From positions 1-64,000 of the IMG/VR virus record IMGVR_UViG_3300035183_000373: DNA of 64,000 nt. One strand, given 5' to 3'. The notes beneath the pieces were generated by a model, which had not been told where the DNA came from, did not search any database, and was given only the letters and a program-made list of their open reading frames with translations. The stretch comes from a virus. Shown here piece after piece: positions 25,813 through 56,705 of this stretch (the first letter of the stretch is position 1; each line of letters starts with the position of its first letter). A program made the translations under genes and the position numbers.

Positions 25813-26760
25813 TTACTGAATTATTGTACCACTATGCAATCCACGAGCAACACCATTAGCAACTAATGCAGCCATACCAATTTCTTCGTAAGCCACATAG
25901 CCGATTGATGCTTGCTTAGGATTATCGTCAGGCATTAAAATAAGTTCAGTACGAACTGGCATAACCCCAAAGAAGCGAGGTTCAGCAAGAGCATAAACAG
26001 AACCCTTCTGAACGAGACGGCTAACAATTAAGTCAATACCCCATATACTTCCATAGAGACCAGTTTCCAGAACTTCACGGAGAGACACAGGGTCTAAATC
26101 TTTATTAGACCACACACGAATATCGGCAAATGAACGGAATCGCATTAAGAATGCATACTGCGGTAAATCAAAATCCATAATAGATGCCGATAAATCGTTC
26201 AAAAAGACCTTACTTGCACCAGCTGTTCCAGTAGTATAAGGAACATTGCTTAAATTACCAGCAGTAGTACTGTTAAGTAACGCAAGGAACTGTAAGTCTT
26301 CCTGTTCCTGAACAGCAATCTTCAATGCTTCTTGAGTACGGTCAAGAATATTGAACCTACGCTGTTGAATTTCAGACAATCGAATATTTGCATCAGCAAA
26401 TATTTCCCAAGTAGTGGGTTCAACATATTCAGCATTGATATTAACAGAATCAACACTTCCTTGCTTTGAAACAACGAAAGCATTGACCTGCTTTTTAATA
26501 TCTCGGTCGTACCTAACAATCTGACCTTGAGCAAGAACGTCTATCTCAAGAAATTTTCTAGCAACTCCAACATAGTCTAACTGTTCACGAATAGGAACAG
26601 CCATTTGAGCACCTACTGCCTGACGCCCAGCTTCAGTCTGTAATGCATCAAACACCTGGTCAACGCTTATAGAATTCTGAAAGGTGTCAAATGCATCCTG
26701 AGCACCAGTTACTGTACCTGCCTGAGTAGCAAACCCAGATTGAGGTCTATTTGTATTCAT
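25813..26760 (-). CDS. Major capsid protein
   Basis: 315 aa. The HK97-like pattern includes an N-terminal arm, then REQLDYVGVARKFLEIDVLAQGQIVRYDRDI, a beta-hinge and E-loop region, and a long spine helix (RRFNILDRTQEALKIAVQEQEDLQFLALLN). The late P-domain/A-loop part has LPQYAFLMRFRSFADIRVWSN, LYGSIWGIDLIVSRLV and YALAEPRFFGVMPVRTEL. Codon use is more GC-rich than its neighbours, as usual for the most abundant phage protein. A strong RBS (AAGGAG) precedes the ATG. It lies after a decoration gene and the scaffold. Confidence 0.85.
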   Translation of the reverse strand: MNTNRPQSGFATQAGTVTGAQDAFDTFQNSISVDQVFDALQTEAGRQAVGAQMAVPIREQLDYVGVARKFLEIDVLAQGQIVRYDRDIKKQVNAFVVSKQGSVDSVNINAEYVEPTTWEIFADANIRLSEIQQRRFNILDRTQEALKIAVQEQEDLQFLALLNSTTAGNLSNVPYTTGTAGASKVFLNDLSASIMDFDLPQYAFLMRFRSFADIRVWSNKDLDPVSLREVLETGLYGSIWGIDLIVSRLVQKGSVYALAEPRFFGVMPVRTELILMPDDNPKQASIGYVAYEEIGMAALVANGVARGLHSGTIIQ

Positions 26761-38700: not shown

Positions 38701-38982
38701 TGCTGACCTTTGAGCTTGCCATGCATTCCAACCACATCCATGAGTTTCTATATGCTTTTTCTGCATATTATAAGTACCTTCAACAACTCTTCTACATGTT
38801 TCCCACCATTGTTCGTTTTGACAATTGCAATTTTTATAATTATTTTCTTTGCATGAAGTAGTATGAATTATACGTGAATATGTTTGAAAAAATACTAATT
38901 CTCCTAATCCATTAAATCCAAATGGTGGTTTTTTATTTTTATAAGATTCTACAAAAGAGTCTGAAAGACGAAACTTATCCAT
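35791..38982 (-). CDS. Class II (B12-dependent) ribonucleotide reductase with intein
   Basis: 1063 aa precursor. The exteins are residues 1-488 and 881-1063 (671 aa when spliced). Extein landmarks are FLPPGRGLWAMGS, LNNCGFVSTKN, GNIRRSAEIVFGD, GGNPCLEQTLESYELCNLVE (catalytic Cys and Glu), KPSG|TVSLLAGATPGIHYP and a C-terminal FCSNDVCEIK pair that acts as the redox shuttle. This order resembles monomeric adenosylcobalamin-dependent ribonucleotide reductases (Lactobacillus RTPR type). No separate R2 gene is needed. It reduces ribonucleotides for phage DNA synthesis, and ThyX lies downstream. The intein splits the active-site loop, so splicing is essential. Confidence 0.9.
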   Translation of the reverse strand: MDKFRLSDSFVESYKNKKPPFGFNGLGELVFFQTYSRIIHTTSCKENNYKNCNCQNEQWWETCRRVVEGTYNMQKKHIETHGCGWNAWQAQRSAQQMYDRIFNMKFLPPGRGLWAMGSEITEEKNLYASLNNCGFVSTKNLKEDLSKPFLFLMDMSMLGVGVGFDTLGAGQIIIKGPNTKRNKEVYQIPDSREGWVESLRLLLESYFLGTAPIEFDYSLIRPAGSIIRGFGGVSSGYKALEDMHNDIKKVLDKEKNQPISVTAIVDIMNLIGKAVVSGNIRRSAEIVFGDINNTEYLDLKNYSKNPHRESYGWASNNSVFAKIGDNYENVCERILINGEPGFAWLENMRNFSRMNNGPDYKDRRADGGNPCLEQTLESYELCNLVETFPYRHSSLEDFLTTLKYAYLYAKTVTLGKTHWVETNRIILRNRRIGCSVSGIAQFITKYGIETLRQWLEAGYNEIQKWDGIYSEWLAVPRSIKTTSVKPSGCRPSDALTSTKQGILTLEELFEQHNEKEIWSNCEGYTVIQENNTEERIVKTYVNGKTPVYKILCSYNIELRSTGNHLWWVKKNYKNKKYNDVNTWKKTDELTSEDILEIVPGIYDKDSPVYLKELNSISFKMRTDAKDILQPIILTPDLAWFFGYLWGDGAMSPGKFRIRFIDGRLDNLKKAQNIVKEYFGLDSVIYKASQHRKAWTLDISSKFLWHWLIRNDVFKYYNDKLSFIPKVIRQGSAEVIIAFIAGLIDADGCVSARERSNVVILSTADEEFARHVQDISLAVGIVFSRSHNTQGYNLQKRKSMWLLTSMPESNVERFMLLKKHSVKMQNYNMKRPDLPWNCELKTSHRILGKVKSVSLIGEMNTYDIEVENSHWYYAGAVKSHNTVSLLAGATPGIHYPESRFYIRRIRLNKFSKLLEPLKKAGYTIEPCYGLEESTVVVEIPVDVGEGLRSVSEVSMWEQLCLAAFMQRYWSDNQVSATITFDPEKEGHQLSNALNYFQYQLKGISFLPRYTTKPYRQMPYEAITEEQYKEKIKNINKVNFGRVRGSEADVDKFCSNDVCEIKSGV
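36343..37518 (-). mobile_element. LAGLIDADG intein inserted at KPSG/T of RNR
   Basis: 392 aa, residues 489-880 of the precursor. Block A starts with Cys (CRPSDALTS). Block B is RSTGNHLWWV (TxxH). Two dodecapeptides, WFFGYLWGDGAMS and FIAGLIDADGCVS, make a full LAGLIDADG homing endonuclease. Blocks F/G are YDIEVENSHWYYAG and KSHN. The following residue is Thr, which serves as the +1 nucleophile. All splicing residues look intact. KPSG/T in the RNR active site is a known intein insertion site. Confidence 0.93.
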
Positions 38983-40228: not shown

Positions 40229-40810
40229 TTAGTTTATATACGGTTCCCAAAATTCTGTTGATTCTAAATTATCAATAAATCCTGATACTAATTCTTTAAC
40301 TCTTATTTCTATATTTTTTAACATATCTAAAATTTCTTTTGACTTAAAACCTATTTGTATAAGAGCATTTAATTTTTCTTTAGTATATTCTTCATCATTA
40401 TCGTCTTCTACTTGTACTATATCATCTAAAACATATTTTATATCTTTATCTTTAGTTATACCGTACCATATTCTACGTTTATAAATATCATCAAATGAAA
40501 ATTGTATATGTAACCATCCACCAGACCTTCCAGCTTGAAATACTGATGATATATCTTTAAATTCTGATTTTAAATAATCAATAAGATAATCTAATTCAAT
40601 TGATGCATATTCCCGTATAATATTATCAATGATTTCTGGACTTAATTCTTCTTCTACTTCTTCTGGCATATTAAATCTATATATTTTAATATTATATGCT
40701 AAATCTCCATTATGGAGATTATCATAATAATAGTTTTTTAATTCATCATACCATTTTTCATAATTAAGATATTCTAATATATTAGAAAATTTTAAATTTA
40801 TAGAATTCAT
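40229..40810 (-). CDS. SNIL-tagged protein, downstream part of a nonsense-split gene
   Basis: 193 aa. It begins MNSINLKFSNILEYLNYEKWYDELKNYY, a copy of the second half of the 306-aa paralogue at 41803-42723. It is in the same frame as the 81-aa piece upstream; only a TAA at 40898-40900 separates them. The ATG at 40810 stands where the paralogue has Thr, just before the KFSNIL tag. A cleaved or reinitiated module, or a recently broken gene. Function unknown. Confidence 0.6.
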   Translation of the reverse strand: MNSINLKFSNILEYLNYEKWYDELKNYYYDNLHNGDLAYNIKIYRFNMPEEVEEELSPEIIDNIIREYASIELDYLIDYLKSEFKDISSVFQAGRSGGWLHIQFSFDDIYKRRIWYGITKDKDIKYVLDDIVQVEDDNDEEYTKEKLNALIQIGFKSKEILDMLKNIEIRVKELVSGFIDNLESTEFWEPYIN

Positions 40811-40897
40811 ATTTGACTCTTTTCTAAAATCTGATTTTACTAAATAAACTAAATTTTTACTTCTATACCAATGTTCTGGTATATAAACTCCACGAGT

Positions 40898-41143
40898 TTA
40901 AGAATTAAGTCTAGTATTCCTTAATACTCTTTCAGGATTTTCATACATTACATCAGAAAGCATTGCTGAATTAATAAAATATCCTTTTATTTTAGGATTT
41001 TCTCCAAGATATAAATAAGGTGATTTATATACTCGTGTATATAAATCTGTAAATTTCCATACTTGATATGGTGATACAATTTTATCAAAATTTTTTATAA
41101 AATCTTTAATATAAAACTTACCTATACTTTCAATAATATTCAT
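40898..41143 (-). CDS. Upstream part of the nonsense-split gene
   Basis: 81 aa, homologous to residues 1-85 of the 306-aa paralogue (IKDFIKNFDKIVSPYQVWKF is shared almost exactly). The frame runs on past the TAA through VYIPEHWYRSKNLVYLVKSDFRKES, which is also matched in the paralogue (IPDSWLRSKNLVYLVKSDF), so the stop is a point change of a Gln-type codon. Function unknown. Confidence 0.55.
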   Translation of the reverse strand: MNIIESIGKFYIKDFIKNFDKIVSPYQVWKFTDLYTRVYKSPYLYLGENPKIKGYFINSAMLSDVMYENPERVLRNTRLNS

Positions 41144-41157
41144 ACATTTTATATTTA

Positions 41158-41778
41158 TTATTCATTGCTATATATATCTATATACGGTTCCCAGAATTCC
41201 ATTGATTCTAAATTATCATGTAAAAGATTAAATCTTTCTTTTATATATTTTTCTATTTCTTTTGACATATATAACATTTCTTTTGATTCAATCCCTAAAT
41301 CCATAGGTATATTAAGTCTTTCTTTTTTTTCTTTACTTTCATTAAAAGTATAATCATAATTATATTTATATTCTATTATTTTATCAACAATATCGTTAAT
41401 ATCTTCATCGTTAAAAATAGATTCCAAAATTACATCTTTATATCCATATAAGAAAATAAATTCTATTTCTAACCAATATCCATTAATTGATATTTTATTT
41501 ATATCTTTAAATTTTGATTTTAATTCGTAATTCATATTTACTACTTCTTCATAAATATTATCGTTTATTATATCATTAATTGCATAACTATTTAATTTAT
41601 TATTTACTTCTTCAGGTACATTAACATCATATAAATTTTCAATGTAAAATGCTAAATTGTTATTATGATAATTATTTTTATTACGTATATAATGATATAA
41701 TGCATAATACCATCTCTCATAATCAAGATGTTCTAATATATTAGAAAATTTTAAATTTATAGTGTTAATACTATTCAT
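41158..41778 (-). CDS. SNIL-tagged protein, paralogue
   Basis: 206 aa. It begins MNSINTINLKFSNILEHLDYERWYYAL and has the same plan as the 193-aa module: a charged beta/alpha middle and the ending LESMEFWEPYIDIYSNE. It stands alone with the tag at the N-terminus, between the split copy and the intact 306-aa copy. Tandem duplication origin is clear from the flanking sequence. Confidence 0.65.
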   Translation of the reverse strand: MNSINTINLKFSNILEHLDYERWYYALYHYIRNKNNYHNNNLAFYIENLYDVNVPEEVNNKLNSYAINDIINDNIYEEVVNMNYELKSKFKDINKISINGYWLEIEFIFLYGYKDVILESIFNDEDINDIVDKIIEYKYNYDYTFNESKEKKERLNIPMDLGIESKEMLYMSKEIEKYIKERFNLLHDNLESMEFWEPYIDIYSNE

Positions 41779-41802
41779 ATATTTTATATTTACTATTTAT
41801 TG

Positions 41803-42723
41803 TTATGTGTCTATATACTGTTGCCAGAATTCCATTGATTCTAAATCGTCAATAAATCCTGATACTAATTCTTTAACTCTTATTTCTATATTTTTTAACA
41901 TATCTAAAATTTCTTTTGACTTAAAACCTATTTGAGTAAGAACGTTTAATTTTTCTTTAACATATTCTTCATCACTATCATCATCTTCTTCTTGTATTAT
42001 ATTATATAAAGCATGTTCTATATCTTCATCTTCAGTTACAGCATCCCATATGTAATATTTATAAGTATCATCAAATGAAAATTGTATATGTAACCATCCA
42101 CCAGATCTTCCAGCTTGAAATACTGATGATATATCTTTAAATTCTGATTTTAAATAATCAATAAAATCTTCTAATGCCCATCCTGCTGTACTCCATATAA
42201 TATTATCAATGGCTTGTGGACTTAATTTTTCTTCTACTTCTTCTGGTATATTAAGTCTATGTATTTTAATATTATATGCTAAATCTCCATCATGAAGATT
42301 ATCATAATAATAATCTTTTAATTCATTATACCATCTCTCATAATTAAGATGTTCTAATATATTAGAAAATTTTAAATTTATAGAATTCGTATTTGATTCT
42401 TTTCTAAAATCTGATTTTACTAAATAAACTAAATTTTTACTTCTTAGCCAAGAATCTGGTATAGATACTTGAGAATTTAATTTAGTATATGTTAATACTT
42501 TTTCTGGATTTTCATTTTCTGAATTAGAAGCTATTACTGAGTTCATAAAACTATCTACTCTTTTAGGATTTTCACCAATATAAATATATATGTAATGATT
42601 AATTCCATGCTTTTGTAACCCTGGATTTATAAATTTCCATACTTGATATGGTGATACAATTTTATCAAAATTTTTTATAAAATCTTTTAAAGAAATCTGA
42701 CCTATGAAGTTAATAATATTCAT
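41803..42723 (-). CDS. SNIL-tagged two-module protein, intact copy
   Basis: 306 aa. Residues 1-115 (IKNFDKIVSPYQVWKF, GENPKRV, RSKNLVYLVKSDF) are followed by NSINLKFSNILEHLNYERWYNEL and a helical/charged second module ending LESMEFWQQYIDT. No known fold recognised. The tag is internal here and N-terminal in paralogues, which shows that the modules are exchangeable. Start overlaps the 617-aa gene by 4 bases. Confidence 0.65.
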   Translation of the reverse strand: MNIINFIGQISLKDFIKNFDKIVSPYQVWKFINPGLQKHGINHYIYIYIGENPKRVDSFMNSVIASNSENENPEKVLTYTKLNSQVSIPDSWLRSKNLVYLVKSDFRKESNTNSINLKFSNILEHLNYERWYNELKDYYYDNLHDGDLAYNIKIHRLNIPEEVEEKLSPQAIDNIIWSTAGWALEDFIDYLKSEFKDISSVFQAGRSGGWLHIQFSFDDTYKYYIWDAVTEDEDIEHALYNIIQEEDDDSDEEYVKEKLNVLTQIGFKSKEILDMLKNIEIRVKELVSGFIDDLESMEFWQQYIDT

Positions 42724-44573
42724 AAACTTTTATATAATTGCTCAAATTTTATATTTCTCCAGTTATCTTTTCTAGGAGTACCTACAGAAATAGAATCTTC
42801 TACAACTACATCTTCAAGATTATATCCAAACACACCGTAGACAAAACCATTATATTCGTCTAATTCTGTAATTCTAACAAATCTTCTAACATCTTGACCT
42901 TGAAATTTTCCTTCTCCGTTTCTAATGTATGACCAAATTTGATTTTTTTTAGCATATCTAAAAAATTCATCAATATCAAAATAATTATTAGATAAATTAC
43001 TAAAATCAAAATCAAAACTACTAACCTTTAATTTACCTTCCCACGGTATTCTATTCAAAACTATACCTTCATACGTAGCTTCCATAGGTTCATCATCCAT
43101 TTTGTAATATTTTCCATCTGAAGATTCAACATATAAAGCTGAATAAAGTTTATTATATTCTTTATGTAATTTCATTTTATTTTCGTATGATATTCCTGTA
43201 TTAAAAGGAGACCTTTCGTATCTACGATACCTATGTATAACTTTTAATGGAATTCCAGCAAAATTTAAAAATCTATTCATCATTTCTTTAGTATACTTTG
43301 TATACCAACCACCAGTATTAAGTTCTAATTTATTAGGATAAAATTTAATTATAGGAGTTTCATGATATATTATATTTATAGAATTTAATATTGGGTCAAA
43401 TTTTATTTTTATACCAGTTACTCCAGCATTTATTTTTTGTCTAATCTTGTATTTAGATGGTTCATTAGGTAAATCTCCTAATGGTTCATAAGAAAAGAAA
43501 CTATTAAATATTTGTGAATATGTAATATGACTATTATTTAATATACTATCTAATTTAAAAAGTTCTAATATATTAGAAAATTTAAGTAATTGTAAATCAT
43601 ATGTATTATAATTTTGTTTTCTAAAATTAGGATAATCTAATTGTTCTCTTATAGGTTGTGCAACTGGAGAAATATAACCAACATCATATGAATCTACTTT
43701 TATTAAATCTTTTATTTCATCAAATGATAATCTTAATTCCATTAATTGATTTTTATGTATTGGATTATACACACCAAAAATAAGAATACTATTTCTACGG
43801 TCTATACTATTTAAGAATAAATAACAATTTAATAAGTAATTATCTAAATTATTATATTTATATATAATATATTGTTTAGTATCTGGTAATAAATGTGAAT
43901 CAATAAATTCAAGCATCTTATTATATAATTTAGAATCTGGTACTATTACGAAGCTATCGCCAATTGTAATTATAGATGATTCTTGAACTCCATTGCTAAT
44001 AATAGTTTTTGATTTATTGCCACGCATTACTTCAGATGGTTGTTCCAATTGCCCGTATATTTTATTTTTCATAAAACAAAACTCGTTTATATTAGATAAT
44101 TTATTCATATATAATAAATCATCTTTTGCTTTATTTCTCAATTCTGATTCATTAAAAGAATATAACTTATTACAATTAGCAAGTTCTTCTGAATAACTAA
44201 TAGATAAAGATACTCTAGCACCTATCTCATAATCAAGTGATGTTTTAAGTTTAACACTAGCTAGTCCAGCTGCTTCTACAGCATATGAAACTGCTTCAGC
44301 AGGGTTATTAATTTCCATTAAATCAGAATCTGCTAATCTACGTATTAGAGTTGCAGTATTCATAAGTTGTCCATATTTTACAGATTCTGGATTTTTAAGC
44401 CATCGTTTAACTAAATTAATAGCCGACCGTAGTGATTTATCATTCGGTCTTTCCTTTTCATATGCAGGAATTATTTTTTCAGCACAATAAATTGCTGTTA
44501 ATATATCTACCAATATATCACTTGGTACTTCTTTAGGTATTACGTTTAATATATTTGAAAAACTTAAATTCAT
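42720..44573 (-). CDS. SNIL-tagged polyvalent-type protein (617 aa)
   Basis: It begins MNLSFSNILNVIPKEVPSDILV and opens with a helical module shared with the C-terminal modules of the 1209-aa protein (IYCAEKIIPAYEKERPNDK...AEAVSYAVEAAGLASV). A second tag (LLKFSNILELFKLDS) sits at about residue 335. It introduces a beta module with NTGGWYTKYTKEMMNRFLNFA, a pattern I know from phage proteins ('ntGGW.T..Tk.r.n..l'). The overlap with neighbours is 4 bases at both ends (ATGA), so expression is coupled. Functions unknown. Confidence 0.65.
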   Translation of the reverse strand: MNLSFSNILNVIPKEVPSDILVDILTAIYCAEKIIPAYEKERPNDKSLRSAINLVKRWLKNPESVKYGQLMNTATLIRRLADSDLMEINNPAEAVSYAVEAAGLASVKLKTSLDYEIGARVSLSISYSEELANCNKLYSFNESELRNKAKDDLLYMNKLSNINEFCFMKNKIYGQLEQPSEVMRGNKSKTIISNGVQESSIITIGDSFVIVPDSKLYNKMLEFIDSHLLPDTKQYIIYKYNNLDNYLLNCYLFLNSIDRRNSILIFGVYNPIHKNQLMELRLSFDEIKDLIKVDSYDVGYISPVAQPIREQLDYPNFRKQNYNTYDLQLLKFSNILELFKLDSILNNSHITYSQIFNSFFSYEPLGDLPNEPSKYKIRQKINAGVTGIKIKFDPILNSINIIYHETPIIKFYPNKLELNTGGWYTKYTKEMMNRFLNFAGIPLKVIHRYRRYERSPFNTGISYENKMKLHKEYNKLYSALYVESSDGKYYKMDDEPMEATYEGIVLNRIPWEGKLKVSSFDFDFSNLSNNYFDIDEFFRYAKKNQIWSYIRNGEGKFQGQDVRRFVRITELDEYNGFVYGVFGYNLEDVVVEDSISVGTPRKDNWRNIKFEQLYKSL

Positions 44574-47500
44574 TTTTTTAATTGATTATTTAATATATAC
44601 CATGCGTCTGATTCTGCTTTTAATTTTAATGACTCTACATCAATGGATATGTTGAATTGTTGCCTAAGAAAATTTATAGAAGTAAGTGCATCAATTTTAT
44701 CTTCATAATCACCATTTATTATATATAAAATACTATTTGATATTGCATGAATACAATATTTAAGCATATCATACTTTCCACCAAAATGTAACGCATCAGA
44801 ATTTACACGATTTTTTAAAATTATTAAATCATTATATGTGTTTTTTAATAATTCTAAATTTGAACTTGTTCTTTCAAATATATATTTTTTTGCAATTTTT
44901 AATACTTTTCTAATATTAAAATCTTTTTTAACAAAAGATTTATTTTCACAAATAGGTATTAATTCTTCTAAACAATATAATAACCAAAGAGAATCTACAA
45001 TTATCTCTGTAGGAACTTCTGACGGAAATACGTTTAATATATTAGCAAATTTTCCAATGTCATTATATATTTTTAATAATTTTGGTGTTAAATATTGAAA
45101 TGCATTACGTTTAGCTTTTAATTTTAATCCATCGTAATCTAAGTTCTCATTAGCTATCAATGCATATTTACGAGATTGGTCTACACGAGCCGTATCTCCA
45201 TAATTTGAAACTGAAATACCTAAATATCCTGCTGCGTTTGCTATAGCATAACATGTATTAGAATTACGTATTTTATGCGACCTATCTAATGCTAATTCAC
45301 CCTGTAATATAGCATCATTATAATTATCTGTTGTAGGATTATTTAACCACTTATATACACTTCTAATTACATTTTTTACTGTTTCATCATTAGGAAATAC
45401 ACTTTCGTACAAAGGTAATAATGATTCTACACAATATAATGCATGTAATAAATTAACTAAAGGTTCAGGTAAAAGTTTAGGTAATGAATTAAGTATATTA
45501 GAAAATTTAATTGAAGAAACACTATTTAATTTGTTTATTAATTGTTTATTCGATGAAAATACTAATAAATCTTCATTAATATTTAATAATTTATCAATGT
45601 TAGATTTCCCTTTTAGTGGTAAAAATGCTGGTTGAATTTGGTCTATTGAAAATGGTATATATGTCCAATCTATTTTTCCTCTAGTACCACGTTCATATTT
45701 ATTTTTATATGCTATTCCATCATAACCAAATCTTTTAAGTAATAGTTTTAATTCCCTATTATTCTTTGGATAAGGAACAATATTTCCATATCTATCAACA
45801 TATTTACTATTAATTTCATATCCATATTCATCTTCCTCTCCTGGTATATATTTTAATATTTTACGTTTTACTAATGCATCCATAATTTCTTGAATTTCCC
45901 AAGTACCTACATCTGGAAGATATAATGGATTTTTAATATTTAAAAATACTGGATGAATATTAGGTGCATATTTAATTTCTTTATTATAATTATCATTATA
46001 ATAAACAGGAACATTTTCTATAAATTTGATAGCTTTTGGTCTATCTGACCATTGTTCTCTCTTCTTTAATATTATATTTGATTGTTCTACAGGACCAAAA
46101 TGAAATCCTATTTCTTTGGTTTTCCTTGGATTAAATTCTTCAAAAATAAACGGAGTACCATGAAATACTGGTTTTAAACTACCATCTTCATATCGAACTA
46201 CACTATCTTTAAATGCTTCTTCTACAGAAGGATGTGGTTTTATATCTCTAACATCTGAAAATTTAGGTGAAGACACTTTTGTTATATTTGTAAATAATAG
46301 TCTTGACTCTTTTTTTCTAGGTAGTTCTTTAATCAATTCATTTGCTTCATCGATATAGTTAGTAGGTACAGTAATATAACCGCCAGTATCATCAACTGGA
46401 ATACCATGTTCTTTCAAATATTTCACTACAAATTTTATATCATAATCTTCATCCAAATCAACAGCTTCTTCAATACCTGACCAATCTATTTTATTTTTCT
46501 CAGGATTAAACATTAAACGGCTTCTTTCTCTTGCTATAGCATATCCTTCAGGCGAAATTACCTCAGTAAAAACACTGTAATTACCAATACCAAATTTACC
46601 ATTTAAATAAGAAATAAGAGCTTCTTGCATAAATTTACCAAGACCTTGGTTACGATACGCAGCTTTAACAGTTGTCTCAAGTATATAAACTTTATTCCTA
46701 ATTATTTCAAAATAAAGACTACCTATTACTTTCCCATCGTATATTGCTTCTATATGATTTAAAACATGGTTCGTTTTGAAAATAAGTCGTAACTTCGACC
46801 AATCAATAATTTTCTTTCTTACTGAGGTTTTTAGAGATGCATCAATTTCCATATCCGAATCAAACACTCTAATAATATTCGAGAATTTTAATGATGTTAT
46901 TACTTTATTAAGGTCTTCCTCTTTATCCATAACATGATGCTCTAATGCTATCTCTGGGTCAATTCCTGGTTCATCGACAATTAATTTCTCTGGGTCAAAC
47001 ATCAAAGACCTACGATAATCAAGCATTTTCTGTCCTTTTGGAGTTAAAGCTCCACTTACAATATAGTAATTGTCTACGCCAAATAATCCATTTAGATAAC
47101 TAATAAATGCTTCTTGTAATTTTTTTCCTATTCCTTTATTTGCATATCTAGGATTAACTAATACAACAGTATGACCTATAACTGGTAAACCTTTATATTT
47201 TACATCAAGAATCTGAAATCCCATTACACCAATAATTTTTTCTTTATATTTCGCTACAATACCTTCTGTATCTGAAGGATAGTCTAAATGTATATTTGAA
47301 CGATTTACCCATGGTAAATTCGATAATTCATTAAATTCACTTGCTGGAACTACTTCATAACGAATTTCATTTATAATATTTGAAAATTTAAGTGAAGAAA
47401 AAATTGTATTTCTATAGTCTTCAATAATATTTTTTATAATTAACAATTTATTTAATACTTTATTAGAAGATATATTAATAATATTCCAAACATTTATTTG

Positions 47501-48199
47501 TTTATCTTCTTTTTCTTTTTTAAAGTCTTGTTCTATAACATGATATAAATGACCAATATCCCATCCAGAATATGCACAGTTCCATGTTATGTTTTGAAAT
47601 AAATCAGAAAATTTTGGTTCTATTATTAAGTAATCATTACCTCTTACATAATCATCACTCCAATTTATATTAATTTTATCATTTGGTAATGCTTCATTAA
47701 CTTTATTTCTTATATTATTTATGAAATTTTTTTTATCTTCTTCGTTTGTAAAATCAATTTTAAATGAATACTTTCCTTTATAAATAGAATGTAAATCTAA
47801 AAAGTTGATTAATTTTTCATATTCTTTATTTGCTAACCATTCATAATTAACATCAATTGTATTCAATACATTCGATATGTTTTTTAAATAAGAGTGGCTT
47901 TTTATTCTTAATTTAAGATTGGGAGGTAAATATCTATTAAAAAAAGAAACATAATATGGTATATTTTGAAGTATACCAGATACATATTCTTCTATTACAT
48001 ATCCTTGTAATAAATAAAGGTCATCTCCTGTATGTCTGTATTTGGACATATTTTGTTCAATAAAATCTTTAGTAGATTTATTAAAATACGGTAACCGTTC
48101 TCTTCCAATGTAAGAAACAAATTCTTGCATAAGAGGAACTGGCATAGCTACTTTTTGTAAATCATTATATTTAGTAATATTTTTAAATGTTAAAAACAT
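44570..48199 (-). CDS. Polyvalent protein: two GNAT domains, ART-like domain, two helical modules
   Basis: 1209 aa. After an N-terminal LTFKNITKY-like tag comes an unknown module. Tags at 269-276 and 436-443 (SLKFSNII) precede two GNAT acetyltransferase folds (NKGIGKKLQEAFISYL at about 354-369, NQGLGKFMQEALISYL at about 517-532). Residues about 655-860 look like a phage ADP-ribosyltransferase: VFHGTPFIFEEFNPRK, GFHFG and FGYDGIAYKN. Tags at 896-903 (SIKFSNIL) and 1049-1055 (GKFANIL) precede two related helical modules. This mixture is the hallmark of 'polyvalent proteins', which are thought to be injected with phage DNA to block host defences. Confidence 0.7.
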   Translation of the reverse strand: MFLTFKNITKYNDLQKVAMPVPLMQEFVSYIGRERLPYFNKSTKDFIEQNMSKYRHTGDDLYLLQGYVIEEYVSGILQNIPYYVSFFNRYLPPNLKLRIKSHSYLKNISNVLNTIDVNYEWLANKEYEKLINFLDLHSIYKGKYSFKIDFTNEEDKKNFINNIRNKVNEALPNDKININWSDDYVRGNDYLIIEPKFSDLFQNITWNCAYSGWDIGHLYHVIEQDFKKEKEDKQINVWNIINISSNKVLNKLLIIKNIIEDYRNTIFSSLKFSNIINEIRYEVVPASEFNELSNLPWVNRSNIHLDYPSDTEGIVAKYKEKIIGVMGFQILDVKYKGLPVIGHTVVLVNPRYANKGIGKKLQEAFISYLNGLFGVDNYYIVSGALTPKGQKMLDYRRSLMFDPEKLIVDEPGIDPEIALEHHVMDKEEDLNKVITSLKFSNIIRVFDSDMEIDASLKTSVRKKIIDWSKLRLIFKTNHVLNHIEAIYDGKVIGSLYFEIIRNKVYILETTVKAAYRNQGLGKFMQEALISYLNGKFGIGNYSVFTEVISPEGYAIARERSRLMFNPEKNKIDWSGIEEAVDLDEDYDIKFVVKYLKEHGIPVDDTGGYITVPTNYIDEANELIKELPRKKESRLLFTNITKVSSPKFSDVRDIKPHPSVEEAFKDSVVRYEDGSLKPVFHGTPFIFEEFNPRKTKEIGFHFGPVEQSNIILKKREQWSDRPKAIKFIENVPVYYNDNYNKEIKYAPNIHPVFLNIKNPLYLPDVGTWEIQEIMDALVKRKILKYIPGEEDEYGYEINSKYVDRYGNIVPYPKNNRELKLLLKRFGYDGIAYKNKYERGTRGKIDWTYIPFSIDQIQPAFLPLKGKSNIDKLLNINEDLLVFSSNKQLINKLNSVSSIKFSNILNSLPKLLPEPLVNLLHALYCVESLLPLYESVFPNDETVKNVIRSVYKWLNNPTTDNYNDAILQGELALDRSHKIRNSNTCYAIANAAGYLGISVSNYGDTARVDQSRKYALIANENLDYDGLKLKAKRNAFQYLTPKLLKIYNDIGKFANILNVFPSEVPTEIIVDSLWLLYCLEELIPICENKSFVKKDFNIRKVLKIAKKYIFERTSSNLELLKNTYNDLIILKNRVNSDALHFGGKYDMLKYCIHAISNSILYIINGDYEDKIDALTSINFLRQQFNISIDVESLKLKAESDAWYILNNQLKK

Positions 48200-48206
48200 A
48201 AACTTA

Positions 48207-51200
48207 TTAATAGTAAATATTTAAGTAATCTAATACTTTTCTAGGATTAGAAAATGTCCTATATTCACCATCAATGTCTAAAGAAACAATTTTATTAGAT
48301 GATAAAAGTGATAAATAATATATTAATGCATCTTTAGCTTTAGTATAATTTACAACTTCAATAGTAGAACCAACAACTCTAATCCAACCTAATCTCAGTA
48401 ACAATTTTAAAGATTCACTATCATATTCATCAACATTTTCAGTTTTTGATAAAAATTGTTTTAAACGAGGATTATTTAATACTATTTTATTTGCCAATTG
48501 AATATGAGTTTCATTATCTCCAACTTGATATAATTCACCACTTGGACTTATCAAACCATAAAAATTTTCTACATAAGATAATCTTACATTTTCTATATAT
48601 TCTAATGCTTCATTTGGAGATTTAAATAATAAAGGTTTATTTTCTATATCAATAAAGACACTTTTATTTGGTGGCAATAAAGATAAATATTCAATTAGTG
48701 AATCTTTAGCTTTTTTATAATTACCAATTTCTATATTTTCTCCATCTATTCTTAGCCAACCCATATTTAAAAGAATATAATTCGCTTTATATAGTTCAGA
48801 TATTTTTTCTTTATATTTTAATTTATTTTTTAATATATCTACAGCAAGTTGGGCATGTGTCATTAAAATATCATTGATAGCATAATATTCACCTTCTGGA
48901 CTCATCCATCCATAAAATGAAGAAAAAGTTTTAATACTACTATTTACTATTTTATTATTTTTACTATTTTCTAAAAAGTAATCTATGTTAGTATAATAAT
49001 AATCAAGTGATGCTTTTTGTTTTTTAAAATTGTATTTACAAAATAAAACTATATAATCATCATTAGTAATAAGTCTATCTCCAATAAATTTATATTTAGA
49101 ATTCAATGCATATTTTTTAACAGCTTGTTTATATGGAAGTGCATTTATTATGTGTACATAAATATAATCTCCTATATCTTTAAAATAAAAAAACCATCTA
49201 TCGGAATTTTTAATCAATGTTTTATTAAATAAATCTATAATGTTACTACCATTTTTAGTAAATGGTTTAAAAAGATGATTCAAGAAATAGTCTAATGAAG
49301 ACCAAGAGTAATATCTATCATCGCATATATAATAAATTACAATATATTCATTATTTTTTCTTATGGAATTAAATTTTTCTTTTTTATCAAATTCATCACA
49401 ATGTAAATTTAATATATCTAAATTATAATTTTTATTCTTTGCATCTTGATATTTCATAATATCATCTATAGTAACATCTACATTAAAACTGCCATGTTTT
49501 GTATCAAAACGTAAATACCAATATTTTGTATTGATAAGTAAATCTTTATTAAAATAATCTACTATACTAGATTGTTTATTAAATCTTTTATCAACCACAG
49601 CATGCTGTAAAAAATAATCTAATGATGTCCAAGAAAGTAAAGAACCTAAATAAAGAATTACTACATTCTTATCTTTTTCTTGAATATCTTTTATTATTTC
49701 ATCTATATTGTTATAGGTAGTAATAAAATTTGTTTTGTTTAATTTATATATTTTTATAGCTTTTGAATATGGAAGTACATTTAAACCACGAAATTCAAGT
49801 TCAACGTTTTTATCAGTAAACGGTAATACTAATTTCCAAAATTCATTTTGTAAAAAATGTTCTTTAGTAAAATGATTTAATATATTAGAATACTTTTTTT
49901 TATTATAAATAAATTCATTCTCTGGATATAACCATGAAATATGTTGTTGTTGTGCTGCACTTATCTTTTGAACATGAATCTTAATATATCTTGGATATTG
50001 TTCATATGTCCCATAAACAATTGGAGGATAATGTTCTCCCTCCAATTCTGAATTAAATTGATTAGCAGTTATATCAACAATATTACCATCAACTTCCACC
50101 CAGTAATGCAGTGGGGTATACATTTCGGACTCCATTTCCTCATCCGAATTAAAATCCTCACTATTCCAAGTTTCATATTTAGAATAATCGGGTTTATCAA
50201 TAATAAATTTACCAATTACAAGATATACATTCTTATAACCTTCTTGTTTAAGTGCCAACGCTAATTTTCTAGAACATTCAAGACACATTGCAGTGAAATC
50301 AGCATAGTAATCATTAGCACGGATAATATCATTTTGTACTTCCTCTGCTATTTCTTCTACTGATTTACGAATATTTGAAGTCTTTGATGTATGTTTTGTG
50401 AACTTATTATAATTATCAAAATTTTCTATAAATTTATCTAATGCTATTATCATATAATTAAGTTTTTTATTTCTTCTATATCTTCCAAATACAACTATTG
50501 CTTCTTCATCTTCAAATAAATATTTTTTAGAAAAATCAATATATAATAATGTATTATTTTTATTAACATAATAAATACCATCAGAAATATAATAATTGTG
50601 TATTTCATCATTAATAATATTTTTTAAACTACTTACTTTTATTACTTCAAAATCAGAATTTCTACCCAATAATTTTTTAAATTCAGGTGTTTTAGGTACA
50701 TAAATATTGTTAAATTGCTCTAAAATATTTGATTCTTTGATTGAAGAATAAGTACGAAAATCATCTATGTGTTCTATAGCTTCATTAGCATCTATAAATG
50801 CTCTAGCATCACCAGAAACTTCCATATATATTGATACATTTTTTGGTAAAAACGAAAGATACATAATAAGAGAATCTTTAGCTTTTCTCAAATTATGAAT
50901 TTCTATATTTATCATCTGATAATTTAATTTAGCTACACGTATCCATCCAATTTTTAGTAAAAATGAAACTGGGTCTATTCTATGATAATACTTTTCTAAG
51001 TATTCTTGTAACGCTTTATTATTTTTTATTATCTCTTGCGCAGTTATAAAATGAGATTGTGTAACTGAATAAGCATCCCCATTTGGAGAAATCCACAAAT
51101 CTCCTGTAGGATAAGAACTTTGTTTTTCTTGTTTTTTTAAAGGAATAAAATTTTTATAAAAATCATTTAATGATAACATTAAGTAATATTGTATAGTAGG

Positions 51201-54200
51201 TTTAATTCCATAAAGTCCAATAACAAATATTTCATTATCTGGAAAACAATTTTTAATATCGGAAATACGATATAAATTAAATGTATTACCACCTTCATAA
51301 TAATACACAGTCATTGATTGTGGATTAGTTTTTAATAATTCATCTATTATATTATCCTTTTTTCCAACACTAACTGTAACAAAGGTTAATTGTTTATTTG
51401 TTTTTATGAACTTTTTAAATACATTATATTTAGGCACAAATTCAGAATAATTAAAATCTAAATAATTAACAATACTTGAACTTTTTTTATTTACAACAGG
51501 AACAAAATATTTTTTAAATTCATCAATAGGAATTACTATATATTTTTGTCTATAAAATATTAACGCTAATTTTTCATTGTCATCTATTGACAAATCTTTA
51601 ATGTAATCAACAACTAGTATACCAGATAATAAATTATCAAAAACATGTACATATAAATCTGGAAATGCAGATTCAAGATATTTTTTTGTTCCTATATCAA
51701 GTAAATCTACTATAGTATTATCTTGTATAAAGAATAATTGTATTGCTCCTTTTTTAGGTCCTATATATTTAAAAGTGCTAGGTATATGGTCTAATATATT
51801 ACTGTAATTACTTACAGAAGAATTTTTATAAGATTTTTTTATTTTCACTGGAACGAAATATTTATTAAATTCATCTAAAGTAGCTACAATAAAAAAATAA
51901 CGCTTAAATATTAATAAAACAATTTTTTCATTTTCGTTAAAAGGTAATAAATCAATATTATGATATGCTTGTAATTTATTATTTTCTATAATATCTTTTA
52001 AATAATAAACTGGAAACCATGTAGGTAATATAAATTTAAGGTCTTTTTTACTATTAATAAAATTGTGTAATATTATTTTTGTACGATTATTTAAATAATC
52101 TGTTTTAGGTCCTACATATTTATAGTATTTAGTTAATAAATAATTTAATATATTTGAATATCTATAAGATTTTCTTCTTTTTACTGGAACGAAATATTTG
52201 TTAAATTCATCGATAGAAAGTACTACAGATTTTTGTCGATAAAATATTAATACCAAATTTTCATTATCATCTATTGGTAAATCTTTAATATAATTAAGAG
52301 AGAATTTATTAGATAATAAATCATCAAAAAAATATACATATAAATTTGGAAATTTTGATTCAAGATATTTTTTTGTTCCTATATCTTCTATATTAGAAAA
52401 GTATATTATAATATTCTTTTGATTAAAGAAGAATTGTATTATTCCTTTTTTAGGTCCTATATATTTAAAAGAATTAGGTATATTGTCTAGTATATTACTG
52501 TGGTGGGAGATGTCTTGTTCTATTTCTATATTTGATTTTTTAATATCTACATTACTTACAGAAGAATTTTTATAATATTTTCTTCTTTTCACTGGAACAA
52601 AATATTTATTAAAATCATTTAAAGTAGCTACAATAAAAAAATAATGCTTAAAATGATGTTTAAATATTACTAATTTTTCATTATTATCTATTGGTAAGTC
52701 TTTAATATAATTAAAATACATTTCACCAGATGACCAATCATCAAGAATACTTATATATAAATTTGGAAATTTTGATTCAAGATATTTTTTTGTTCCTATA
52801 TCAAGTAAATCTACTATAGTATTATCTTCTTTAAACAATAATTGCATTGCTCCATTTTTAGGTCCTATATATTTAAAAGAATTAGGTATATAGTCTAATA
52901 TGTTACTATGATGGGATATATTTTGTGATACATTACTTACAGAAGATTGGGACGTATTATTATTAATTATATAATTATTAAATTCTTCTTCAGTAGCAAT
53001 TAAATAATGACTAAAAGTGCCTTCAATTTGTCTATATATTAATAATAATATTAATTGTTGTTCTTCATCTGGATATGGAGCATATTCTATTTCATGTAAT
53101 AATTGAGTATCTTTTAATATATAACTTATTGGTAATACTTTAATACCATGATGTCTTTCAGATAATTCTCTTTTAGTACCTTTATCAATTACTTTACAGT
53201 ATTCAAATTTATATATTGTATTATCAAAAATTTTATTAGTTAATTGAATAGTATCTGCAATAGTAAAATATCTATAAAAATCTTCCACACTAGCGATAAT
53301 ATGAAAATCTCTATTTCTACAAGACAAAACAACTATGACATCAGTATCATCATATTTATTTAAATTTAATAGTACATTTCCACTATAATCAATTAAATTG
53401 TGTATATCTATAAATTTTAATAAGTTCAATCGGTGAATTATATTATTTATTGAATTTTTGTTTCCTATAAACTGTATATAAAAATGTTGCTTCGCTGGTA
53501 TTGAAAAGCGTATTAAAGTATTCTTAAAATGCGTAATATATTCAGACTTTATTTGATATTTATTAGTTTCTAATCCTAATTGATGTTCTAATATATTTGA
53601 ATATTTATAAGATTTTTTTATTTTTACTGGAACGAAATATTTATTAAATTCATTAATAGGAATTACTATGTATCTTTGTCGAAGTATTAACGCTAATTTT
53701 TCATTGTCATCTATTGACAAATCTTTAATGTAATCAATAGAGAATATACCAGATAATAAATCATCAAAAACACTTACATATAAATTTGGAAATGCAGATT
53801 CAAGATATTTTTTTGTTCCTATATCAATTAAGTCTACTATAGTATTCTTTTGATTAAAGAAGAATTGTATGAATTCTTTTTTAGGTCCTATATATTTAAA
53901 AGTGTTAGGTATATAGTCTAATATGTTACTATGATGAGATATGTTTTGTGATACATTACTTACAGAAGAATTTTTATAAGATTTTTTTATTTTCACTGGA
54001 ACGAAATATTTATTAAATTCATCTAAAGTAGCTACAACATAAAAATGACGTTTAAATATTACTAATTTTTCATTATCATCTACTGGTAAATCTTTAATAT
54101 AACTAAGATACATTTCATTAGATGGCCAACTATCAAAAACCTCTACATATAAATTTGGAAATTTTGATTCAAGATATTTCTTTGTTCCTATATCAATTAA

Positions 54201-54392
54201 ATCTACTATTAAATCTAATTTTGTAAACAATACTTGCAATATTCCCTTTCTAGGTCCTATATATTTAAAAGTGCTAGGTATATGGTCTAATATATTACTG
54301 TAATGGTGTACATTTCGTACTATTTCTAAATCAATAGTATCATTATCTACTTTTGTAGAATGTGAATATGGATTATCCTTTAGGTCTTGCAT
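48207..54392 (-). CDS. Giant modular SNIL-repeat protein with transglutaminase-like domain (2061 aa)
   Basis: At least nine modules start with [Y/H]SNIL[DEN]..P..FKYIGP and continue DLIDIGTKKYLES, IKDL.IDDNEKL and a strand ending EFNKYFVPVK. Residues about 1345-1490 hold a candidate papain/transglutaminase-like site: CLECSRKLALALKQEGY (Cys about 1369-1372), HYWVEVDGNIVDITANQF (His about 1430, Asp about 1440). Three 'W(I/M)SP.G..Y.V....H...A' modules lie near 1097, 1829 and 1949, each with GW(I/L)R(V/I) and AKD(S/A)LI.YLS. Length, repetition and tags fit a multidomain protein delivered with DNA. Functions are otherwise unknown. Confidence 0.65.
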   Translation of the reverse strand: MQDLKDNPYSHSTKVDNDTIDLEIVRNVHHYSNILDHIPSTFKYIGPRKGILQVLFTKLDLIVDLIDIGTKKYLESKFPNLYVEVFDSWPSNEMYLSYIKDLPVDDNEKLVIFKRHFYVVATLDEFNKYFVPVKIKKSYKNSSVSNVSQNISHHSNILDYIPNTFKYIGPKKEFIQFFFNQKNTIVDLIDIGTKKYLESAFPNLYVSVFDDLLSGIFSIDYIKDLSIDDNEKLALILRQRYIVIPINEFNKYFVPVKIKKSYKYSNILEHQLGLETNKYQIKSEYITHFKNTLIRFSIPAKQHFYIQFIGNKNSINNIIHRLNLLKFIDIHNLIDYSGNVLLNLNKYDDTDVIVVLSCRNRDFHIIASVEDFYRYFTIADTIQLTNKIFDNTIYKFEYCKVIDKGTKRELSERHHGIKVLPISYILKDTQLLHEIEYAPYPDEEQQLILLLIYRQIEGTFSHYLIATEEEFNNYIINNNTSQSSVSNVSQNISHHSNILDYIPNSFKYIGPKNGAMQLLFKEDNTIVDLLDIGTKKYLESKFPNLYISILDDWSSGEMYFNYIKDLPIDNNEKLVIFKHHFKHYFFIVATLNDFNKYFVPVKRRKYYKNSSVSNVDIKKSNIEIEQDISHHSNILDNIPNSFKYIGPKKGIIQFFFNQKNIIIYFSNIEDIGTKKYLESKFPNLYVYFFDDLLSNKFSLNYIKDLPIDDNENLVLIFYRQKSVVLSIDEFNKYFVPVKRRKSYRYSNILNYLLTKYYKYVGPKTDYLNNRTKIILHNFINSKKDLKFILPTWFPVYYLKDIIENNKLQAYHNIDLLPFNENEKIVLLIFKRYFFIVATLDEFNKYFVPVKIKKSYKNSSVSNYSNILDHIPSTFKYIGPKKGAIQLFFIQDNTIVDLLDIGTKKYLESAFPDLYVHVFDNLLSGILVVDYIKDLSIDDNEKLALIFYRQKYIVIPIDEFKKYFVPVVNKKSSSIVNYLDFNYSEFVPKYNVFKKFIKTNKQLTFVTVSVGKKDNIIDELLKTNPQSMTVYYYEGGNTFNLYRISDIKNCFPDNEIFVIGLYGIKPTIQYYLMLSLNDFYKNFIPLKKQEKQSSYPTGDLWISPNGDAYSVTQSHFITAQEIIKNNKALQEYLEKYYHRIDPVSFLLKIGWIRVAKLNYQMINIEIHNLRKAKDSLIMYLSFLPKNVSIYMEVSGDARAFIDANEAIEHIDDFRTYSSIKESNILEQFNNIYVPKTPEFKKLLGRNSDFEVIKVSSLKNIINDEIHNYYISDGIYYVNKNNTLLYIDFSKKYLFEDEEAIVVFGRYRRNKKLNYMIIALDKFIENFDNYNKFTKHTSKTSNIRKSVEEIAEEVQNDIIRANDYYADFTAMCLECSRKLALALKQEGYKNVYLVIGKFIIDKPDYSKYETWNSEDFNSDEEMESEMYTPLHYWVEVDGNIVDITANQFNSELEGEHYPPIVYGTYEQYPRYIKIHVQKISAAQQQHISWLYPENEFIYNKKKYSNILNHFTKEHFLQNEFWKLVLPFTDKNVELEFRGLNVLPYSKAIKIYKLNKTNFITTYNNIDEIIKDIQEKDKNVVILYLGSLLSWTSLDYFLQHAVVDKRFNKQSSIVDYFNKDLLINTKYWYLRFDTKHGSFNVDVTIDDIMKYQDAKNKNYNLDILNLHCDEFDKKEKFNSIRKNNEYIVIYYICDDRYYSWSSLDYFLNHLFKPFTKNGSNIIDLFNKTLIKNSDRWFFYFKDIGDYIYVHIINALPYKQAVKKYALNSKYKFIGDRLITNDDYIVLFCKYNFKKQKASLDYYYTNIDYFLENSKNNKIVNSSIKTFSSFYGWMSPEGEYYAINDILMTHAQLAVDILKNKLKYKEKISELYKANYILLNMGWLRIDGENIEIGNYKKAKDSLIEYLSLLPPNKSVFIDIENKPLLFKSPNEALEYIENVRLSYVENFYGLISPSGELYQVGDNETHIQLANKIVLNNPRLKQFLSKTENVDEYDSESLKLLLRLGWIRVVGSTIEVVNYTKAKDALIYYLSLLSSNKIVSLDIDGEYRTFSNPRKVLDYLNIYY

Positions 54393-54625: not shown

Positions 54626-54898
54626 TTATACAATCCATATTAAACTTCCTTTACCATTACCATTACCATTTGAATTACCATAACCATTACCCATACCACA
54701 ACCTTTAGTGGAACTAAACCCTATTGTTGCTCCATATCCTCTACCATTTCCAGAAGCATAATAATATCCAATAAAATTACTACATCCATTACCATGTCCG
54801 TTACCATATTCATTTCCATAATTTTGAATATAACCATTACCTAAGCCATCAGTATCAAAAAAATAATATCCAATTAAATATTTTAAATCAATTTTCAT
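54626..54898 (-). CDS. GNG-array protein 1
   Basis: 90 aa, last gene of the array in transcription order. It starts MKIDLKYLIGYYFFDTDG without the usual LFE. Repeats are YGNEYGNGHGNG, GNGRGYG and MGNGYGNSNGNGNGKG. Cys in two spots. An alternating (GX)n protein of unknown function. Confidence 0.8.
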   Translation of the reverse strand: MKIDLKYLIGYYFFDTDGLGNGYIQNYGNEYGNGHGNGCSNFIGYYYASGNGRGYGATIGFSSTKGCGMGNGYGNSNGNGNGKGSLIWIV

Positions 54899-54922
54899 AA
54901 TTTATTATATAATAATTCACTG

Positions 54923-55243
54923 TTATGATTTCATTGTAATATATAAAATTTTATTATAACTTTGAATATCATAATATATAATATTATTAATGTGTATATT
55001 TCCTAATCCATTACCACTTTCTTTATAATTGACACTACATCCATCTTCATTAAAATATTCATTAAGTTTTTTAATTTTATTTCCGCTACTATTTCCATAT
55101 CCATTAAGAAATATATTTCCATTTCCGTATCCATTTCCATTATTGTATCCAACAATACCACAACCACATCCATTAGGATATAAGGAATAAATTATATTAA
55201 TAATATTATCAAATGAAAATATTGTTATATTTTTATCAATCAT
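54923..55243 (-). CDS. GNG-array protein 2
   Basis: 106 aa, longest of the array. The N-terminus KNITIFSFDNI matches protein 3. Repeats PNGCGCG and NNGNGYGNGN are followed by a longer non-repetitive C-terminal part (KKLNEYFNEDGCSVNYKESG) shared with protein 3. Confidence 0.8.
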   Translation of the reverse strand: MIDKNITIFSFDNIINIIYSLYPNGCGCGIVGYNNGNGYGNGNIFLNGYGNSSGNKIKKLNEYFNEDGCSVNYKESGNGLGNIHINNIIYYDIQSYNKILYITMKS

Positions 55244-55256
55244 TGTATTTAAAATT

Positions 55257-55514
55257 TCAAATAATTTTACTTATTTTATTATATCCATAAATATTAAAAT
55301 ATATGCATCCAGTATCATTAAAATATTCATTTAATCTATTTGCATTATTTCCATCACCATTTCCATATCCATTACAAAACATATTTCCATTACCAAAACC
55401 ATTGCCTTCCCAATTATTGCAATCTTTATCTCCATATCCATTACCATTAGGATAGTAAAAATAAATTTTATCAATAAAATTGTCAAAAGATATTATTTCT
55501 ATATTTTTATTCAT
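55257..55514 (-). CDS. GNG-array protein 3
   Basis: 85 aa from ATG 55514; the frame can extend to a GTG at 55523, but alignment with protein 2 (MNKNIEIISFDNF) favours the ATG. It has YYPNGNGYGD, EGNGFGNGN and NGYGNGDGN repeats and the RLNEYFNDTGC tail of protein 2. Clearly a recent duplicate pair. Confidence 0.78.
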   Translation of the reverse strand: MNKNIEIISFDNFIDKIYFYYPNGNGYGDKDCNNWEGNGFGNGNMFCNGYGNGDGNNANRLNEYFNDTGCIYFNIYGYNKISKII

Positions 55515-55537
55515 GGCATTCACTATATAAAGTAATT

Positions 55538-55780
55538 TTAATAGCCATTACCATAACCATCACCATATTCATATCCATCACCATATCCATCTCCATAACA
55601 ATCACCATATACATAACCATCACCATATCCACAACCATCACCATAACCATATCCGTTACCATATCCATAACCATATCCGTAATCATCTCCATATGCATTT
55701 CCGAAACCATTACTTTTATTATAATTTTGATACCAGTTACTATCAGGATAGTATGGCTCTTCAAATAAAATTATATTCAT
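55538..55780 (-). CDS. GNG-array protein 4
   Basis: 80 aa. Consensus start MNIILFEEPYYPD, then almost pure alternation from residue 24 on (YGYGYGNGYGYGDGCGYGDG). The ATG overlaps the stop of protein 5 (ATGA). The other-frame Met/Asp-rich reading is a shadow. Confidence 0.85.
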   Translation of the reverse strand: MNIILFEEPYYPDSNWYQNYNKSNGFGNAYGDDYGYGYGYGNGYGYGDGCGYGDGYVYGDCYGDGYGDGYEYGDGYGNGY

Positions 55781-56200: not shown

Positions 56201-56210
56201 AAACATATAA

Positions 56211-56462: not shown

Positions 56463-56464
56463 AA

Positions 56465-56695: not shown

Positions 56696-56705
56696 AATTT
56701 TTATA

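Follow-up and report, generated by a model that had tools for sequence, protein, structure and literature searches.

A Short Genome-Specific Tag Before Most Modules of Giant Polyvalent Phage Proteins: a Possible Signal for Capsid Targeting or Cleavage

Introduction

Polyvalent proteins are thought to be delivered together with phage DNA and then cut into units, as described in the main text of Iyer et al. (2017; PMC5512222). How dozens of unrelated effectors could be carried in such chains and yet be delivered separately is an open question. At the locus described here, the same short sequence stands before modules of unrelated families. The locus lies in the window, i.e., the whole stretch of viral DNA analyzed, which comprises the first 64,000 bases of a source record of 69,657 bases. 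The record is a fragment with a G+C content of 28%, in which baseplate, sheath, tape-measure and major capsid genes are present. The tagged block consists of six ORFs on the minus strand (40,229-54,392; 4,673 aa in total); its neighbors on the record are RNR/ThyX genes and an array of small genes. A first-pass annotation, made from the letters of the DNA, had proposed that the tag found there (SNIL and its variants) is a sorting or processing signal.

Results

The Tagged Block of the Window

The ORFs concerned are listed below (G3 and G4 are relatives described in the next section).

25813..26760, minus strand, major capsid protein, untagged, used as query for finding relatives (phrog_2522, 1e-50)
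40229..40810, minus strand, 193-aa free-standing "GRSGGW" module, tag near the N-terminus (homologues in G4 with SLKFSDII and in G3 with RTVAEGL and KTHAEGL)
41158..41778, minus strand, 206-aa free-standing "GRSGGW"-type module, tagged (sequence reading and cross-genome homology)
41803..42723, minus strand, 306-aa protein with an untagged first module, then the tag, then a "GRSGGW" module (ORF reading and AlphaFold2 model)
42720..44573, minus strand, 617-aa protein with the tag and an Imm5-like helical module, second module also tagged (PF21805, 2.1e-5, just under the cut-off)
44570..48199, minus strand, 1209-aa polyvalent protein with an N-terminal module, GNAT, GNAT, ART-PolyVal and two Imm5-like modules, a tag or variant before each (Pfam)
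48207..54392, minus strand, 2061-aa multi-module protein with about 10 tags, among them repeated [HY][HY]SNILDxIP units (sequence reading)

Pfam matched the 1209-aa protein to PF00583 (GNAT, 4.1e-13), PF18760 (ART-PolyVal, 1.7e-5, just under the curated cut-off) and PF14423 (5.2e-4), and named no built-in processing peptidase in the window. Several domains of the conflict or effector type are thus combined per chain, in the window GNAT and ART-PolyVal; in the relatives, Fic, histone deacetylase and InPase (G3) and Fic (G6) were found above the Pfam cut-off. By eye, a papain/transglutaminase-like module with C, H and D in order was seen at residues ~1345-1470 of the 2061-aa protein; the C-terminal half alone of this module appears to be kept in G4, behind a KTAD tag.

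The tags of the window, all on the minus strand, are as follows.

40775..40795, minus strand, LKFSNIL, 193-aa protein, residue 8
41734..41754, minus strand, LKFSNIL, 206-aa protein, residue 11
42355..42375, minus strand, LKFSNIL, internal, 306-aa protein, residue 119
44547..44567, minus strand, LSFSNIL, N-terminal, 617-aa protein, residue 5
43566..43586, minus strand, LKFSNIL, internal, 617-aa protein, residue 332
48173..48193, minus strand, LTFKNIT variant, N-terminal, 1209-aa protein
47372..47392, minus strand, LKFSNII before the first GNAT, 1209-aa protein, residue 272
46871..46891, minus strand, LKFSNII before the second GNAT, 1209-aa protein, residue 439
46280..46300, minus strand, LLFTNIT variant before the ART-PolyVal module, 1209-aa protein, residue ~634
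45491..45511, minus strand, IKFSNIL before the Imm5-like module, 1209-aa protein, residue 899
45035..45055, minus strand, GKFANIL before the second Imm5-like module, 1209-aa protein, residue ~1049
54288..54308, minus strand, HHYSNIL, 2061-aa protein, residue 31
53919..53939, minus strand, SHHSNIL, 2061-aa protein, residue 154
53589..53609, minus strand, YKYSNIL, 2061-aa protein, residue 264
52896..52916, minus strand, SHHSNIL, 2061-aa protein, residue 495
52488..52508, minus strand, SHHSNIL, 2061-aa protein, residue 631
52146..52166, minus strand, YRYSNIL, 2061-aa protein, residue 745
51792..51812, minus strand, SNYSNIL, 2061-aa protein, residue 863
50721..50741, minus strand, IKESNIL variant, 2061-aa protein, residue ~1218
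49878..49898, minus strand, KKYSNIL, 2061-aa protein, residue 1501
49236..49256, minus strand, KNGSNII variant, 2061-aa protein, residue ~1713

The first-pass annotation had placed SNIL tags at the N-termini of the 193-, 206- and 617-aa proteins and inside the 306-, 617-, 1209- and 2061-aa proteins, and all of them were found there. Its further statement that almost every module is tagged was slightly too broad: most modules are, but no clear tag precedes the opening module of the 306-aa ORF or the final modules of the 2061-aa protein. The pattern [SATK]NI[LIT] has 25 matches in the 4,673 aa of the block (5.35 per 1,000 aa) against 2.5 in shuffles, a count in which a few matches inside domains are probably due to chance (e.g., residue 707 of the 1209-aa protein and residue 659 of the 2061-aa protein) and several are not independent of each other (the HHSNILDxIP units in the 2061-aa protein are recent duplicates, as are the three "GRSGGW" modules). 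In the other 16,914 aa of the record the pattern is eightfold rarer (0.65 per 1,000 aa). When similar downstream sequences were collapsed, 9 SNIL contexts were left, compared to 0.3 expected.

The tagged modules, which include two GNATs, ART-PolyVal, Imm5-like helical modules and several unnamed ones, form no single homology cluster. The tag is therefore common to unrelated families, as had been proposed, which excludes the alternative that it belongs to the fold of a single homologous domain. When the 306-aa protein was modeled with AlphaFold2 from a shallow alignment of four sequences, residues 1-126, including the tag, had pLDDT values <50, while those of most of the domain after it were 75-92.

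Around the block, the RNR gene (35791-38982) is interrupted by an intein with a LAGLIDADG homing endonuclease (Pfam). The region from 54626 to 62362 and beyond is an array of about 25 short minus-strand ORFs of about 65-110 aa with abundant GNG/GYG repeats, and many of these ORFs begin with MNIILFEY or a similar sequence; GNG.G is the most over-represented word across the whole record. Outside the window, on the plus strand (68909-69370 of the record; 5910-6371 of L004), the opening module of the 306-aa ORF occurs again as an inverted copy, with a degenerate tag, ILRFLNIKKW, at its end.

Relatives Follow the Same Rule but Carry Another Word

With the block proteins as queries, single-protein scans of viral contigs and tblastn against annotated phages gave no matches. 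Relatives were therefore sought, and reached, through the capsid protein and through a protease (see below); no relative came from scanning prokaryote genomes with the capsid profile. Two near-complete relatives, G3 (G003; 194,278 bases; 83% capsid identity) and G4 (G004; 171,836 bases; 93%), share the block, and their chains, as long as 4,385 aa, have a tag before most modules. The word itself is TADII in G4 (KTADII/SLKFADII) and AEGL/AEAL in G3 (TAEGL/TAEAL). In an unbiased search of whole proteomes for over-represented words, AEGL ranked first in G3 (32 non-alike contexts vs. 1.8 expected), TADII first in G4 (11 vs. 0.06) and KLSW first in G6, a 19-kb fragment (7 vs. 0.03). Counts of the window, G4 and G3 patterns per block were 25/1/0 in the window, 0/28/1 in G4 and 1/3/51 in G3, and each tag was nearly absent outside the block in each of these three genomes. 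According to the positional profiles, the tag spans about 10 residues, with L-K-F-S-N-I-L-x-x-[IFL]-P in the window, K-[TF]-A-D-I-[IL] in G4 and L-R-T-T-A-E-[GA]-L-[DE]-x-M in G3.

Homologous modules change their tag with the genome. The "GRSGGW" module aligns over its length across genomes, and it is tagged with LKFSNIL in the window, SLKFSDII in G4 and RTVAEGL or KTHAEGL in G3; likewise, the second module of the 617-aa protein is homologous to the N-terminal part of a 1224-aa protein of G4, where the tag is KTADII. Among 41 cross-genome homologous stretches, which were collected without using the tags, the native tag was found near the start of the stretch in 17 of 24 cases in the window, 15 of 35 in G4 and 10 of 23 in G3 (fractions at random positions, 0.17, 0.20 and 0.15, respectively), and a foreign tag in 3 of 24, 0 of 35 and 0 of 23. 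Thus, the tag follows the genome, not the module. Tag identity was 0.81 within a genome between non-homologous modules and 0.27 between genomes for homologous modules, a comparison that is partly circular, and more so than that of the stretches collected without the tags, because the tags were picked by genome-specific patterns. The check proposed in the first-pass annotation, whether relatives keep the tag when modules are shuffled, is hence answered positively for its position and negatively for its sequence, and the use of its own tag by each genome argues for a genome-specific recogniser. The reader of the tag is probably such a genome-specific partner.

Other words are used in more distant relatives, KLSW[EQ]xQ in G6 and its sister L181. 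Relatives of the protease that are more distant also seem, more tentatively, to follow the principle: L193 has SSLNKQS in three proteins beside the portal gene (KQS, 14 vs. 0.5 expected), and L190 has GLRAFVA, in few copies, before several modules of a 3,129-aa chain. This chain of L190 (10226-19615) opens with part of the protease, after which, as judged by eye, come many ART-like (YHGT/HHT) units and GNAT-, NUDIX- and ParB-like modules. A core common to several words, [SATG]L[KR]F[ASG], is enriched in G3, G4, L186, L181, G6 and the window's own genome (e.g., 13 vs. 1.0 expected in G4, 9 vs. 1.3 in G3 and 6 vs. 0.06 in L186), and not clearly in untagged relatives. The tags differ between phages with possibly different hosts, as they might if a host protein (a protease, chaperone or localisation factor) read them after delivery. 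The core shared by six genomes, however, suggests that it is the older element and that the tags arose by descent within the phage lineage rather than by fitting to hosts, and we consider a host reader quite improbable.

The tag is confined to some of the relatives. None was found in the available sequence of G7, G8 and L183, which share the capsid or protease family, and the unbiased word search gave no comparable tag in the distant capsid relatives G13, G14, G16, G19, G24 and G29. The "GRSGGW" module was found in none of 25 further records with related capsids, in a search that had no positive control. By protease or capsid, the nearest relatives in culture are Rhodococcus phage E3, Mycobacterium phage Myrna and Bacillus phage G. 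Two of these, E3 (22 vs. 10.4) and Myrna (19 vs. 10.5), show a modest excess of a generic core, [KR][TVILFM][AS], which serves as a lead only, since this core was chosen after looking. As a separate observation, LDGY occurs 39 times in 9 proteins of G24 (G024; 28 non-alike contexts vs. 1.1 expected), and DGY words are enriched in G13 and G16 too.

Some features of G4 lie apart from its tags. Its capsid gene (108184-110167) is split, the first ~55 residues (110000-110167) being ~1 kb away from the remainder, and the intervening ~1 kb holds a LAGLIDADG-like ORF, which suggests an intron or intein. By eye, G4 also encodes a GroEL-like protein (21995-23626) and a protein (5777-6919) whose NPFNPTT C-terminal sorting-like domain is a hint of type IX secretion in the host.

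The Tag as a Protein-Level Motif

The tags are encoded by 16 distinct 12-mers among 25 in the window, 25 among 28 in G4 and 40 among 51 in G3, and the Ser of the window's tags is coded by both TCN and AGT. As many different 12-mers encode the tag, its conservation acts at the protein level; the tag is a short linear motif under protein-level selection. That modules have been shuffled between fused and free-standing genes at tag boundaries might also be expected if the tag were a recombination seam or mobile DNA repeat that is translated by chance. This reading is contradicted by the codon diversity, including the switch of Ser between codon families, and we give it hardly any credence. A tag that is a left-over of duplication, or part of one homologous domain, with no function of its own, would agree with the several window tags on recent duplicates (the HHSNILDxIP units and the modules of the 193-, 206- and 306-aa proteins). 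Non-homologous modules nevertheless share the tag, the codings differ and homologues in other genomes carry another tag. This swap of tags between genomes contradicts such an origin, which we regard as very improbable.

Head Genes and a Protease Beside the Tagged Genes

In G3, G6, L181 and L186, the tagged genes lie near virion structural genes. The ends of the G3 contig share 126 identical bases, so that this genome is circular as assembled, and across the circular join the portal (3242-5305) and protease (709-1779) genes are ~6 kb from the tagged block. The order on the minus strand of G3 is a 1,551-aa multidomain protein, a protein with a HAD-like start, the portal protein, a 472-aa protein, the protease, a few genes and the tagged block. 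In G6 and L181, both of which have KLSW tags, the portal and protease genes are flanked by tagged genes, which extend to the scaffold gene. The G6 protease gene is at 11280-12287 of L123 and that of G3 at 709-1779 of L020, each on the minus strand. The genomes in which both the protease gene and a tagged block are present are G3, L186, G6 and L181.

The protease was found by gene order and PHROGs, as searches for the prohead protease families PF04586 and PF03420 were empty. It matched PHROG 18299 ("head maturation protease") at 3.5e-15 for one orthologue and 1.2e-5 for another, the annotated prohead protease of Rhodococcus phage E3 (hhalign, 3.6e-13), gp19 of Bacillus phage G (1.3e-24) and the head maturation protease of Tunturi_5 (9e-12). 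His83 and Ser180 are invariant, and a Cys/His cluster is also present. By these comparisons, the neighboring gene of the relatives is homologous to annotated head proteases and has the conserved His and Ser. Its AlphaFold2 model was weak (pLDDT 66), with no PDB match at E ≤ 0.001; named viral prohead proteases were matched only weakly (E 0.25 and above). The record of the window lacks the protease gene, and a search of the G4 contig did not find it either. The location of the tagged genes in the head operon of relatives points to virion packaging and to the head protease.

Discussion

A tag that is common to unrelated modules, lies at their N-terminal edge, persists on free-standing modules and changes in concert within a genome argues for one reader with private specificity. 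Taking all the analyses together, we propose, with a probability of about one half, that the tag is a capsid-targeting or cleavage signal carried by each module of the polyvalent proteins and read by the head machinery or its protease. The tag would be a short linear motif that serves for recognition and marks where each module of the polyvalent, effector-like proteins has its N-terminal edge. Its partner would be encoded by the phage and would have a specificity peculiar to each phage lineage; all the tags in one genome would accordingly change together. The likeliest reader would be the head-assembly machinery, foremost the head-maturation protease encoded beside the tagged genes in relatives, perhaps together with the scaffold. 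We infer that the prohead takes up the tagged proteins, that these are cut at the tags or next to them, and that GNAT, ART, Fic, deacetylase, pyrophosphatase and other modules then enter the host from the virion as separate units, along with the DNA; in effect, the tag would be a capsid-targeting propeptide of the T4 type, repeated once per module.

One tag per module, and tags that start free-standing modules, fit a signal acting on single modules. A general head-protease site, however, predicts tags on capsid, scaffold or portal proteins, and none of these was seen with a tag, nor was any tag enrichment seen outside the block. Single-module tagged proteins need no cleavage site. The most constrained residue of the tag varies radically between genomes (N, D, E or W), and so no common scissile residue is evident. 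The original idea of a sorting or processing signal has gained partial support, from the unrelated families of the tagged modules, from the genome-specific tags and from the head-operon location in relatives.

The persistence of N-terminal tags on single-module proteins would also suit packaging without cleavage, in which the tags bind the scaffold or another head protein by avidity and the chain is packaged uncut. Consistent with such docking are the hydrophobic residues at +2, +3 and +6 (tags of the window and G4) or at +3 and +6 (G3), which suit a short amphipathic helix, and the virion RNA polymerase of N4, a polyvalent protein that is packaged unprocessed, as noted in the main text of PMC5512222. 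One copy per chain should, however, suffice for docking, and ~40 in 4,385 aa are excessive; moreover, the W-type and SSLNKQS tags are unlike amphipathic helices. We view packaging of the uncut chain as unlikely, though worth keeping in mind.

Cleavage might instead be carried out, either before packaging or once the chain has been injected, by a peptidase that forms part of the chain itself, given that polyvalent proteins are thought, in the main text of PMC5512222, to be processed by built-in zincin peptidases. By eye, candidates are the papain-like C-H-D modules of the window, G4 and G3 and a HELVH zincin motif in L181, and a C1 peptidase gene lies beside the G6 block (Pfam, 8.9e-16). These candidates nonetheless belong to different families in different genomes, the papain-like module of the window appears by eye to be reduced to its C-terminal half in G4, and one word per genome suits one lasting enzyme. 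Overall, a built-in peptidase seems improbable to us.

If the proposed capsid-targeting or cleavage signal is read by the head protease, the phages would have a polyprotein system in which a lineage-specific "cut and pack" word marks each module, domains can be added, moved or split, and the word and its reader evolve together, so that the words of related phages are foreign to each other. We put this broader picture forward tentatively. In the open literature searched, we found no report of matching tagged or processed phage polyproteins, and in open papers no description of a tag that is uniform within a genome, specific to a lineage and placed before every module of giant chains in phages. 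The parts, i.e., polyvalent proteins and targeting propeptides, are already known; a proven private code for cutting and packing would be more than a variation on them. A tag that signals both packing and cutting would explain how dozens of unrelated effectors can be encoded as a few giant genes and yet be delivered separately. Candidate virion-delivered effectors, including domains without a known homologue, could then be listed from sequence alone, by finding the word of a genome and reading what follows it. The tags would also be a case, found in nature, of a recognition code that differs as a whole from one related virus to another.

Comparison With Known Systems

The tagged chains are similar to the polyvalent proteins of phages and conjugative elements described in the main text of PMC5512222, as they mix ART, GNAT, Fic, InPase, NTase and unknown domains and, in relatives, lie beside virion genes. 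They differ in the genome-uniform tag before each module, which a term search did not find in that main text, where the word "linker" is absent.

In T4 and the giant Salmonella phage SPN3US, N-terminal propeptides target unrelated head proteins to the prohead and are removed by the prohead protease, which in SPN3US and phiKZ cuts at AXE/SXE sites (PMC5694885). Like the capsid targeting sequences of T4, the tag is a common short sequence before unrelated proteins or modules, whose status as head proteins is here suggested by gene order in relatives. In T4, by contrast, each protein has one propeptide of 10-20 residues; the motif described here is found within giant chains, one for each module, it differs in sequence from one related phage to another and cleavage at it is presumed.

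Eukaryotic RNA viruses make polyproteins in which short sites with a single specificity recur between unrelated domains and are cut by one viral protease. The tagged chains differ from these polyproteins in that their modules are effector-like rather than essential replication proteins and that the tag also starts free-standing modules. They resemble them in the repeated sites of the same type between unrelated domains, at which the phage chains, too, may be cut.
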